Positions 41,316-48,154 of a stretch of 48,681 nt of DNA are shown in pieces. The notes beneath the pieces were generated by a model. That model made no database searches. It had not been told where the DNA came from and saw only the letters and a program-made list of their open reading frames with translations. Source of the stretch: Candidatus Absconditabacteria bacterium (GTDB taxonomy: Bacteria > Patescibacteriota > Gracilibacteria > Absconditabacterales > Absconditicoccaceae); the NCBI GenBank assembly GCA_028685875.1, contig JAQUDD010000007.1:1-48681 (forward strand). The letters run 5' to 3'. Both the position numbers and the translations under genes were made by a program. Positions within the stretch are counted from its first letter, which is position 1. The number at the start of each line of letters is the position of its first letter.

Positions 41316-42197
41316 ATGCTTTGGGGGATTTATCTCTTTTTTTTAATGATGGTAGCATTTCAGATTTTTGGTTGGGATATTTATTGGTATGGGATTTTCT
41401 ATCTCGTTGGTTTTTTATTTGGATACTTGGTTCTGCGATTTGTTGGAAAAAGGGGATACTTCAAGAAGTTTTCAGGTTTACAAACGGTGTTGGCTAGTCG
41501 TCTGGAGGATTTAATGATTTTTTTGGTATTGTGAGTATTGATAGGAGGTAGATTGGGGCATATTTTTATTTATGATTTTTCTTCTTTTATAGGAAACTGG
41601 TGAGAGATGTTTGCGGTTTGGAACGGTGGAATGTCTTTTATCGGTGGAATCGTGTGAGTATGTACAGCAATGTTTATTTTTAAGTATTGGACTAGACTTT
41701 CTCGGAAGGAATTCCTTATCTTATTTGATATTATTTTGGTTGCGGTTCCTGTGGGAATCTTTTTCTGAAGGTTGGGGAATTATTTAAATCAAGAACTGTA
41801 TGGTATTATTTTTACTAATAGTCTTGGTTTCTCTGAGTATACTGTTTCTTTTCTGCAGTCCTTGAATTTCCTTCATGTATATCCGAATATCGATGCTGCT
41901 TTGAGAATTAATACCAATCAGTTTTCTATGGTGTTTGAGGGAGTATTTCTCTTCATCTTAAGTATTTTTCTTTTCTTTTCTCAGATTAAAAAAACCTCCT
42001 ATAGAGTAGGACTAATTTCTTCTTGCTTTGTTCTCTGATATGGAATTATTAGATTCTTCTTAGAATATCTTAGAAATGATTCTCAGGCGGAATTTATTGG
42101 TTATTTTTCTAAGAGCCAGCGATTTTTCTTGTTTTTTATCTTCTTTGGAATAGTTTTGTTTATTTGGGTGTTGAAACAGAAACCAGAGAGACTATAA
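41316..42197 (+). CDS. lgt: Prolipoprotein diacylglyceryl transferase
   Basis: 293 aa, about seven membrane helices. Lgt moves a diacylglyceryl group from phosphatidylglycerol to the Cys of lipoprotein precursors. Family motifs: GVLIGGRLGHIFIYD, WNGGMSFIGGIVG, GRLGNYLNQELYG (signature with essential Arg and Asn) and GYGIIRFFLEYLR. TGA codes Gly at 41531, 41600, 41654, 41765 and 42036. The stop overlaps the stop of the convergent AbiEi-like gene by 6 bp. Confidence 0.93.
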
Positions 42198-42965
42198 GAG
42201 GTATCCATGTTTTTTAATTATCTGTTCTAATTGATCAGCTTTTTCTCCGTTTACTTCTTTTAATAGAGATAAAAGCTTATTTGCTGAACTATTATATTTC
42301 CCCTGTTTTAGGATTTGTTCAATTTGTTCTATACTAAAAGCTTTTTTATTTTTCTTGAGAAGTTTCTTGATAAGTCCTTCGATGTATCCTTGGTTTGAGA
42401 GGCTGTTAGCATAGAGAACATCAAGTACTGCTAACTCAAGGTTTGCATGGCTTATTGCATTTCCTTTAATTCTTATTTTTTGAGTAAATTTTGAGAGGAG
42501 AGGGTAGAGGTTTTTTTTTCTGCTTTCTAGTGTTTTGAAATTTATTCTTTTATCGAACATTACTATTTCTACGGATTGCTTGTGTTTGTTGATGATATGT
42601 ATCTCTTCTGGGATTCCAATTCCTGTTCCCTGACTATGTAATTCTAGTGCGGTGAGTCATCAAATGTAATAGTGAGATCCACAGAACTTTTGACAATGTT
42701 CTTTTACTATTTTCCAATAAAAGAGTTCTTCTATTTCTTCTTCGCTTTTAGGATCTTGAGGGTCAGTGATAAAGAGAATATCTTTTTTAATGCTTAGGAG
42801 GTGTCCTTTATTTTTGAGTTCGTGGGTGATCTTATAGCATTTCTGAGTATTTTTTGTTCCTACAATTTTTTCTTCTAGGAGGAGGGTAAAATCAGACAAT
42901 CTGATGATTTTATTTTTAAATTTTTTGGATATTTCTTCGTACTTTGTGAGATCTTCTTTTTTCAT
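42192..42965 (-). CDS. AbiEi-like transcriptional regulator/antitoxin
   Basis: 257 aa. The N-terminal winged-helix part reads KYEEISKKFKNKIIRLSDFT..KNKGHLLSIKKDILFI. HYYIGGLTALELHSQGTGIG follows, with both Gly of IGG from TGA, as in AbiEi-type antitoxins and related regulators (YYxGxxSAL). The C-terminal domain is helical (SHANLELAVLDVL, IEGLIKKLLKKNKK). The cognate nucleotidyltransferase AbiEii is not adjacent, so it may be an orphan regulator. Two direct repeats upstream (43013-43046) are candidate operators for autoregulation. Confidence 0.7.
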
Positions 42966-43125: not shown

Positions 43126-43401
43126 ATGATTTCTCAAGGAATGCTTTTGGATGCGTGAGTGTGTGCTCAGAGAGAGGTAACTTGGGATGCAGTGAAGGCT
43201 TCCTTTACGGAGAGAGAAGATGCGAGTTATGATGTGCTCTTAGAGGTAAGTTCCAATAAATTTTGGGTCACTATGACGAGAGATGAATTTGGAATAGCTT
43301 CTTTTGAGATTATTAGTAGTAAATGATTTCTTGAATTAACGACTAAGCTGATCTCTTTAATTAAAAGATTAGTAAATCACCTACGAGAGATGGTTGATTA
43401 A
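43126..43401 (+). CDS. Small unknown protein, possibly leaderless
   Basis: 91 aa from ATG 43126 to TAA 43399-43401, two TGA as Gly (DAGVCAQ, SSKGFLEL). Central beta-like part (YDVLLEVSSNKFWVTMTRDE, GIASFEII) and a helical basic C-terminus (TKLISLIKRLVNHLREMVD). Flanked by a -10 box and a good terminator. No family recognised. Could be a small DNA- or RNA-binding protein, but that is only a guess from charge. Confidence 0.6.
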
Positions 43402-43479: not shown

Positions 43480-43507
43480 TTGAAATTGGTGAATAATTTT
43501 CTATATT
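43480..43507 (+). promoter_or_regulatory. Promoter of the structured RNA
   Basis: TTGAAA (43480-43485), a 16-bp spacer and TATATT (43502-43507). Transcription would start near 43514. No open frame of useful length follows. Confidence 0.55.
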
Positions 43508-43513
43508 CTGGTC

Positions 43514-43745
43514 AAGGGGAGTTTTTTTCATTAACTCTACCGATCTTTACATCTTTTTGTAAGGAGTAGAAGTAGGAGGTTTTGTCCTCCGCATTGCTTT
43601 TTGGGTGATGTATACTTCAGGAACGAAATATTTTTTTAGATGATTTCGCATCATCTTTATTGAAGGAGGGTTTATTTCGTTCCACTACCATAAACAAATG
43701 AGAAAAACTGTCAACGTCGGGAGGTTTTCCAACCGACGTTTTTGT
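43514..43745 (+). ncRNA. Structured non-coding RNA candidate
   Basis: About 230 nt between a promoter and a strong terminator, with no convincing ORF. A closing helix of 13 bp pairs AGTTTTTTTCATT (43520-43532) with AATGAGAAAAACT (43697-43709). Inside are hairpin GGAGG/CCTCC (43575-43590), a long hairpin GGAACGAAAT/ATTTCGTTCC (43620-43683) with inner AGATGAT/ATCATCT, and a possible TTAC/GTAA hairpin near 43550. The terminator is AACGTCGG/CCGACGTT (43713-43740) plus T. The 5'-3' closed shape recalls 6S RNA, but I see no diagnostic motif of 6S, SRP RNA, tmRNA or RNase P. Confidence 0.6.
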
Positions 43746-43746
43746 A

Positions 43747-44553
43747 TTAAAAAGGTAGATCATCATCCCATTTACTTTGTTCATCATTCTTTTCTCGTTT
43801 TTCTTCCTCGCTTTGTCTCTCTTCGGTAGTATTCTCTTTTAACATTGTTTTTATATATTCCTTTTTATCTTCTTCTAGGAACCTTTTTCTTTCTCAAACA
43901 GCTCACTCATTTTCCCAGACCTTATAATTTTCCCGTTTCTCTATAGCTTGTTCATATAGTAATTTCTGAGCGATGTTTTTAATTTTTTTCTGAGAAAAAT
44001 ATCTTTCTTTGCTAAAATATTTTTCTGATCGGCTATCTCATTTACATCCGAAGATATGTTCAAATATTCGATATGTACTGAGATCTTCTATTCCCTTGAG
44101 AGTATGGATATCTAGCCATTTTTCTAATTGAACTTCTGCTTCGACATTGTTGTTTATTTGTTGTCTTATTCTTTCTTTTTTCTCTTCTGCCTCTGTTTGT
44201 TCTCTTTTTTCTTGTTCTTCTTTTTTTCTTTGTTGTTTTTCGTGGCGTATGCGTAACTTTGCTATTCTCTCTGAAGATATTTTAAAAGTGTTTTGTAGGG
44301 TAATAAATTTTCCTTCATGGCATAAGGTTGTTCGGTAATATTTTCTGATGGCCTTATAGTAATCTTCATCTTTCTCTTTTAGTTCTTTATCTTGGCATAG
44401 AGCCTGCATTAGTGTATCTTGTGAGCAAGAAAGAAAATGAAGATGGCGAAAATTCTTCTGTTTTATTTCAGAGATATATATTTTGTCTTCTGGTGTAACC
44501 TCCTTCTTAGGGGTTTCTTGGTATTCAAAGGGTATTTCTAGTTGTTGTATCAT
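43747..44553 (-). CDS. Coiled-coil protein with an SSB-like acidic C-terminal tip
   Basis: 268 aa, read through TGA at 44038-44040 and others to TAA 43747-43749. The N-terminal part (about 1-100) is soluble, with HFLSCSQDTLMQALCQDKEL and YYKAIRKYYRTTLC. A highly charged coiled coil follows (KQQRKKEEQEKREQTEAEEK). The end reads QSKWDDDLPF, nearly the same as the DDD[I/L]PF tip by which SSB recruits its partners. No OB-fold is visible, so it is not a normal SSB. Inferred: a protein that joins the replication/repair hub by copying the SSB tip, or a very divergent SSB. Promoter at 44582-44609. Confidence 0.7.
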
Positions 44554-46201: not shown

Positions 46202-48154
46202 CTATTCGGAGAACTTATTGAAGATGTTGGAGAAAATTATCTCTAGCTCTTTTTTTTGTTGTTGATAGGCGTTGTCTTTTAGCCAAGTATCAAATTCGTA
46301 ATTACAGAAATTTACCATGTATTGTAGGCCTTTTCTTTCCAGTCCAGGATAGCTTTCTATTGCTCATAGCCTTAGGATAAAGACACCGTCTTGGTAGAGA
46401 TCTTCTATTCCTTCAATAATTCTTTTGAATTTTTGTGGATAATATTTTTTTATTACAAACACTAATCTGTTGTAATAGTCTCCACCATTTCCTTTATAAT
46501 TTTTCATATGTCTATTTGCGATCTGATAGTACTTCCCAAGTTCTTTCTGCGTGAAAAATCCATAATCAACGGTGTTATCTCGATCTCCGATGAAGTAATT
46601 TCTGATTCAGAATTTGTTGAGAAATTTTGTCCAAGATTTATAAGATCCTTTTCCATTGATGTTAATGATTTCGTATGTTCCTGTTATGTCTTCTCGTTCT
46701 GGTTGTTCTTGTAGCCACTTGAGATAGTTGGTAAAAAAATATAAATCTGAATCTCCTTCTACCATAATAATTTTGTCTACGAAGAAGATTTTTGAGAGAT
46801 TTTCATATCTGAGAAGATGTACGAGTTTTGCATCATCGGATGCAATCTTTAGGTTGGGATTATAGACTTTGGTATTATTATCTCTATCTTTTTGAAATCT
46901 GTATACTTTGGTAATATTACTTTCATTAATAAAGAGGGCAGAGTAGGTAGAAAGAAAAAACTGTGTACCATATTGTCTACTAATGTTATTCAATAATACT
47001 GCAAGTTCTTTTTGGAGCTGTGGATGGGTATGTAACTCTGGTTCATCGATGATCATAAACCCATCTCTTAGATCATTCCCATAGATTGCACAAAGGATGA
47101 GTAAAATCGATTGTTGCCCACTACTGAGATTTTCAAATTGGTAAACTTCTCCCTTTTTGTTGTTAAATTTTATTGTGATTCACTCCTGAACATATTCAAT
47201 GCTAATATCTTTGTGAATAAATTTAGCGATACTCTTTGAGAGGCTTGCCCAGAATGTTGACCTGTATATTCTATTCTCAATACTTTCTTCAATAGCTTCT
47301 GTGCTTAAGAGAATCTCTTCAGAATTCTTGTTCACGATACTATTTACTTTATTAATACACTTGAAAAATCCTTCTAATGCTTCATAAGTATTGCTTTTTT
47401 CGTTAAAGACAAATTGATCATATTCTTTTAGGCTTGTGAGAAAATTAAATTGATCAACATTTCTTTTACTTGAGATAATGCTAAAGGTATTCTTTAGAGG
47501 GTACCACATTCTTTCTTCAGCTTTTTTTTCAAATTCATTAAAAATCTGGATACAAATATAAAGTAATTCTTGTTCTTGGATACAAACTAAGGCAAAGAAT
47601 TCTTCAGGACTAAGTTTAGTTCTTTCAATATTAAAGCTTTGTTCCTTCTCAGAAAACTCTGCATGAATACTAATATTTTTACATTTTTCTTGGATTTCTC
47701 TGTAGTCGAATTCTGGGAATCTGTATTTTAATTCACTGTATTTTCCTAGGATTTCGTTAATTCTTTCCCTATATTTACACACAAATCCTATGTTTTCAAA
47801 ATCGTTCTCAAAAAGTTCTATATTTAATTCTATCTCCGCTCTTTCTCCTTGAAACTTTGAATTTTTACTTAATTTAGAAGTCTTTTTTGGATGTAATACA
47901 ATAGCTTTTTTGTATTTGGTCTTCTTTTTTTCTGAAAGGATAGACTTATCGAAAGAGTAGTCAAGAATTAGGTTTTTAGTAAATTGTTTTATAATTTCTA
48001 TGAAATTACTTTTCCCAGATCCATTAGGTCAGATGAGAATATTCATATTGAGAGAGTTCTTTTCATTATCTAAAATGATTCCTTCCATAGTGTCCATGTC
48101 TGCTACATAGGGGAAGCTCATCATATTAGAGATTTTTATTTGTTTTAATTTCAT
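46202..48154 (-). CDS. OLD-family AAA ATPase/TOPRIM nuclease
   Basis: 650 aa. N-terminal ABC/SMC-type ATPase: Walker A ILIGPNGSGKSNF with G42 from TGA, signature LSSGQQSILLIL (about residue 342), Walker B GFMIIDEPELHTHPQ (D370, E371). The C-terminal TOPRIM domain has KIIMVEGDSDLYFF (E466) and a later FIGDRDN acidic motif. OLD proteins are nucleases, often phage-defence effectors (GajA of Gabija, AriA-like). No gajB-type helicase follows; the convergent neighbour is the HTH protein, with stops 4 bp apart. A single-gene class 1 OLD is the best reading. Confidence 0.88.

Follow-up and report, generated by a model that had tools for sequence, protein, structure and literature searches.

In standard retrons, the msr-msd lies upstream of the reverse transcriptase (RT) in one cassette, and retron RTs are defined by an NAxxH motif in region X and a VTG triplet opening region Y; validated retrons deviate at both motifs, at VTG for example Vc81 (V to I) and Ec48 (T to H) (PMC6868368). 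Retron-Nex1 (Ne160) has duplicated msr-msd units with no RT within 1 kb (PMC6868368), and Retron-Eco8 is triggered by phage SSB and has an OLD effector (PMC12887533). DRT2 and similar defence RTs combine an RT with a separate structured noncoding RNA (PMC12039810). In the 48,681-nt stretch analyzed here (the window), from a genome of Candidatus Absconditabacteria, we find an RNA (43514 to 43745, + strand) that is, with good confidence, an msr-msd-like template/primer RNA belonging to a hitherto undescribed retron lineage in bacteria using genetic code 25, present in the window as an orphan copy. The system resembles retrons such as Retron-Eco1/Ec86, Ec78, Ec83, Kva2, and Eco8 in the sequence family of its RT, in the NAxxH of region X, in the accessory gene at the locus, and in an RNA with paired ends, a U-loop hairpin in its 5' part, and a long hairpin in its 3' part. 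It differs from them in that the RNA is placed downstream of and convergent with the RT under a promoter of its own, ING stands for VTG, the RT carries an SSB-like C-terminal tip, the accessory family is unknown, and no defined retron type is matched. It is like DRT2 in having an RT with a separate structured RNA but unlike it in RT sequence class, which here is retron and not DRT.

The genome reads TGA as glycine, and the genes around the RNA are continuous only with code 25. The sequence-only reading had described a promoter, a strongly foldable RNA, and a strong terminator, and all three were confirmed. The promoter (43480 to 43507, + strand) reads TTGAAA-16-TATATT, the RNA folds at -79.2 kcal/mol compared to -50.2 ± 4.6 kcal/mol in shuffled sequences (z = -6.3, reached by 0/200), and the intrinsic terminator (43713 to 43745, + strand) is an inverted repeat (43713-43720/43733-43740) followed by a T-run. 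The RNA is flanked on one side by a 91-aa gene (43126-43401, + strand; no Pfam assignment), which forms a divergent pair with an AbiEi-like gene (42192-42965, - strand), and on the other by the gene of a 268-aa protein ending in DDDLPF (43747 to 44553, - strand, TGA read as Gly). That the RNA is an independent regulator, be it 6S RNA, an AbiEi-like antitoxin RNA, or a riboregulator unrelated to reverse transcription, would agree with its having its own promoter and terminator, but we consider this highly improbable. The Rfam search that had been suggested matched no known family, with nothing at the gathering score and nothing credible at E ≤ 10 for the window RNA, and gathering-score scans of the window and five related loci returned tRNAs only. 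A 6S RNA, earlier thought possible from shape, finds no Rfam match, and the multibranched shape is not 6S-like. The AbiEi-like/91-aa pair, whose closeness had been taken as a hint of an antitoxin, is core synteny kept in 8/8 genus genomes, and since 6 of these 8 lack the RNA, the pair is uninformative about it. The RNA instead co-occurs with an RT, at five further RT loci.

Plain BLAST with the RNA against 59 relatives gave short chance matches only and missed the copy in G005, a genome of the same genus, and synteny via the neighboring proteins therefore became the entry route. The 268-aa protein has a single relative among 79 genomes, in G005, at a site that shares its flanks with the window (a NifU-like protein, 73% identical, and the 91-aa gene, 57%). 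Between these flanks G005 carries a 415-codon accessory gene (ORF415), a 499-aa RT ending in DELPF, and a homologous RNA convergent with the RT. With the same flanks and a homologous RNA, the window thus corresponds to the orthologous site minus the RT. The 268-aa protein and the N-domain of ORF415 share 43% identity over 210 aa, and the proposed link between the RNA and this SSB-tip protein is thereby upheld. The suggestion that the RNA is a new orphan class needs to be revised: it is new to Rfam and lineage restricted, but it is not a stand-alone element, because its relatives sit beside a retron-type RT.

Apart from G005, the window's own genome (G000) was the only one of the genus in which RTs were found; there, the one RT of the family lies on contig C11, away from the window. 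A profile made from these two RTs and run on 353 genomes of the class retrieved a tip-bearing RT in six genomes (G000, G005, G028, G019, G079, and G008). In 5/5 fully readable loci, the RNA is encoded immediately downstream of the RT gene and converges with it from the other strand; in G008, the contig stops inside the RNA region. The RTs are 472 to 525 aa long, with a C-terminal extension of about 200 aa past the RT core, and 6/6 end in acidic tips (for example, DDLPF, DELPF, DDIPF, DDISF, DDLPFL, and NDIPF); the SSB of the window's own genome has DEEMPF at its end. By profile matches and motifs, the RTs are classified as retron-type, of no defined type. All 12 matches in a profile search of PDB sequences were retron RTs (Kva2, 2e-17; Ec86, 3e-16), the best PADLOC matches were all retron (types II, III, VI, XI, and XII, with similar scores), and the best NCBIfam match, the retron St85 RT, was well below the type cut-off. 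The motifs LPQG and Y(A/V)DD are found, and region X reads NAELH, NADLH, and NAEMH in three RTs and GAEQH (own genome), NTEMH, and NTEIH in the others; VTG is absent, with ING in five RTs and INK in one. The RT and RNA family was encountered in a single family of TGA=Gly bacteria: a 380-genome phylum-wide sample yielded no such RT in its remaining genomes, viral contigs held no further member, and phage and plasmid records gave only distant (~30%), partial-length RT matches, none of them full length. The class-wide profile also picked up three more distant RTs, in G033, G062, and G065, that have no tip. The distant RTs of L053, L054, and L055, from the same bacterial family, have neither an SSB-like tip nor an RNA-model match, and the L053 RT scores as a retron RT. 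G005 has a second RT (404 aa; L036 5910-7536, contig C13), with a small protein of 133 aa encoded before it and a long ORF after it, which looks like a diversity-generating retroelement.

A covariance model of all six RNA copies, window included (R1), found the RNA in only five of the 353 class genomes, each with a tip-bearing RT at a readable locus, the window's own genome giving two matches. Weak R1 matches in G101, G084, G145, and G062 (E = 0.03 to 0.06 per genome, 353 genomes) were treated as noise. Because the training set of R1 contained the window copy, a second model (R2) used only the five copies adjacent to an RT. Run over the whole own genome, R2 recovered the window RNA at E = 2.3e-15 (81 bits) along with the C11 copy, which was in its training set; the next match had an E value of 0.37. 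The promoter motif is shared as well, with CTTGAAA-N16-TANNNT preceding 6/6 RNA copies and occurring in ≤4/2000 shuffles of each region. In sequence, structure, and promoter alike, the window RNA is a homolog of RNAs convergent with a retron-type RT.

The structure of the RNA, all on the + strand, was compared among the six copies. The 13-bp helix that had been seen to join both ends is real: its 5' arm (a1-like, 43520 to 43532) and 3' arm (a2-like, 43697 to 43709) form a duplex of -16.3 kcal/mol, equaled in 0/1000 shuffles, and the helix is also present in G005 with compensatory changes. Leader/trailer pairing in G028, G019, and G079 beats 95.8 to 99.6% of shuffles, and paired 5' and 3' ends are found in 5/6 copies, window included, the exception being the C11 copy. 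Inside the end helix, hairpin H1 (43544 to 43565) has 24/24 standard pairs across the six sequences, with ≤4 pair types per position. The msr-like part (43567 to 43618) consists of an invariant UAG opening a three-way junction, in which P2 (43569-43573/43614-43618; 100% of cells paired) encloses HA (43575-43590, with a U-rich loop; 97%) and HB (43591-43611; 98%); together these show 11 pairs with both-side changes. The P2 arms read GAAGU/ACUUC, GAAGC/GCUUC, and GGAGA/UCUCC among the copies, and the HA loop has the consensus UUYYRU. In the msd-like part, the HC tip (43638-43643/43651-43656; RAUGA/UCAUY) has 36/36 standard pairs in a hand alignment, and hairpin HD (43670 to 43695) also has 36/36, equaled by 3/2000 shuffles, with arms that vary completely around a conserved GUUCC-type loop. 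In a plain MAFFT alignment, P2, HA, HB, and HC together gave 91.7% standard pairs versus 76.9% after shuffling and 24 both-side changes versus 8.6 (0/500 on every measure), a signal that rests on six RNA sequences and vanishes when the alignment is slid. The check for compensatory changes that had been called for thus came out in favor of the helices, and the comparison supports H1, P2/HA/HB, the HC tip, and HD as shared structure.

The long nested hairpin described earlier (43620 to 43683) stands in part. Its perfect 11-bp helix (43620-43630/43673-43683) is present, but it competes with HD and, as judged by eye, is only partly matched in the other copies. The GGAAC at 43620-43624 is able to pair with the HD loop (GUUCC, 43679-43683), and similar pairings were seen by eye in G028 (GGAAC with the GUUCC loop) and G079 (7 bp), and the pairing of 43620-43630 with the HD loop is perhaps a pseudoknot or a switch. 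In retrons, the priming guanosine is expected in a (T/C)AG(C/A) context beside a1. Two candidate priming sites are seen here: a G before H1, where two copies read CAGA, the C11 copy TAGA, the window CCGA, and most copies NNGA, and the invariant UAG at 43567-43569.

Several features speak against the retron reading: the RNA lies downstream and convergent with a promoter of its own, the window lacks an RT beside the RNA, ING or INK replaces VTG, the priming G lacks a clear TAGC, only six RNA sequences are available, and the C11 RNA has no end helix. Some of these would be better accommodated if the RNA belonged to the RT without forming a strict retron, being copied repeatedly as in DRT systems or used as a scaffold, with no 2'-5' branched msDNA. 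The placement and promoter of the RNA, the C-terminal extension of about 200 aa, the possible pseudoknot, and the noncanonical VTG and priming site fit such a scheme, for which the DRT2 RT bound to a neighboring pseudoknotted RNA is a precedent (PMC12039810). Set against this, all close matches of the RT are retron RTs, region X has NAxxH, and the end helix and U-loop hairpin are arranged as in msr-msd, and we consider a DRT-like use of the RNA to be unlikely. The retron reading remains the one that we prefer.

How the window came to have the RNA but not the RT can be suggested from the neighboring protein. The 268-aa protein consists of the accessory N-domain, apparently fused to an RT tail: its end, LYEQAIEKRENY, is similar to the RT tail LYTQAMKKREDY (p about 0.01 by shuffling), a homology that taken alone is only suggestive. 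Its stop lies one base past the TTTTTGT of the RNA terminator (window 43738-43749), and the RT stop in G005 is at the identical distance. The simplest history would be an in-frame deletion of the accessory C-domain and the RT core that left the N-domain, the RT tail, and an intact RNA. The C-domain of ORF415 is 39% identical over 109 aa to a 277-aa protein beside the C11 RT and is also found in the accessory proteins of G019, G079, and G008; the window protein shows no similarity to the C11 accessory protein. The two-domain ORF415 is accordingly split in the window's own genome, with the N-domain in the window and the C-domain beside the C11 RT. AlphaFold models were poor (pLDDT of 46 for the accessory protein and 59 for the window protein) and all-helical. 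Deletion of the RT might also mean that the window copy is a functionless relic in which the RNA and a truncated ORF are decaying, a view compatible with the retron identity of the RNA. The site has no RT, and this form was found in just 1/8 genus genomes. All helices, the promoter, and the terminator are intact, however, and the 268-aa frame reads through to the tip without interruption, which makes a relic somewhat doubtful, even if a recent deletion may leave the same intact elements.

The second RNA copy of the genome, beside the C11 RT (L035 6740-6900 = G000:C11:144739-144899, + strand), has the promoter and hairpins but no paired ends, with only 11 leader and 4 trailer bases. Because this copy lacks the end helix and the accessory domains are split between the two sites, we favor the hypothesis that the window RNA is possibly used in trans by the C11 RT or competes for it. 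The fuller version of this idea, which we put forward as speculative and rather unlikely to hold in all its parts, is a split, trans-acting retron in which the window would give the end-paired RNA and the tipped N-domain and C11 the RT, the C-domain, and the shortened RNA, with tips that mimic the SSB tail and so sense when SSB partners are lost or captured under phage attack. The assembly is a metagenome-assembled genome with 3.9% estimated contamination, so contigs C1 and C11 could in principle stem from different strains. Like Retron-Nex1, the window has a template RNA copy without an adjoining RT, but this genome encodes an RT of the family at a distance, and the orphan RNA occupies an orthologous retron site.

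From what is known of retrons, the RT would bind the U-loop hairpin or hairpins in the 5' part of the RNA (PMC6868368), priming could start at the invariant UAG or at a guanosine close to the end helix, and the HC/HD part (the 3' half) would be copied into short single-stranded DNA with RNase H trimming. RNA, DNA, RT, and accessory protein would then assemble into a retron complex that most likely acts against phages, and the window copy, which would have arisen by the in-frame deletion, may still serve the C11 RT or compete for it. Of the antitoxin or defence role raised earlier, the antitoxin part, through AbiEi, is unsupported, while defence is conceivable through the retron route. The SSB tip binds RNase HI and repair helicases. 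The SSB-like tips of the retron proteins might dock the complex on these SSB partners or sense lost SSB function. An SSB link is also found in Retron-Eco8, and an OLD-family gene lies near the window accessory gene, a resemblance and not evidence; unlike in Retron-Eco8, the SSB-like tips are on the retron proteins themselves, and the OLD gene is not conserved, none being seen beside the G005 or C11 retron loci. The window gene (46202-48154, - strand), an OLD-family ATPase/TOPRIM with AAA_15, AAA_21, and OLD-like TOPRIM matches (PADLOC Old, 5e-30), lies about 2.5 kb from the RNA and 1.6 kb past the accessory gene.

A limited literature search found no report of retrons with a convergent downstream RNA, nor of retrons in these phyla. 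Within the limits of that search, the system looks like a retron lineage of its own, carried by ultra-small code-25 (Absconditabacteria/Gracilibacteria-type) bacteria and showing two unusual traits, a template RNA convergent with the RT under a separate promoter and SSB-like tips on the RT. Surveys that scan only upstream of the RT would overlook RTs whose template RNA is placed elsewhere. For the RNA itself, an undescribed family gains a concrete partner, the RT, and a testable biochemical role.
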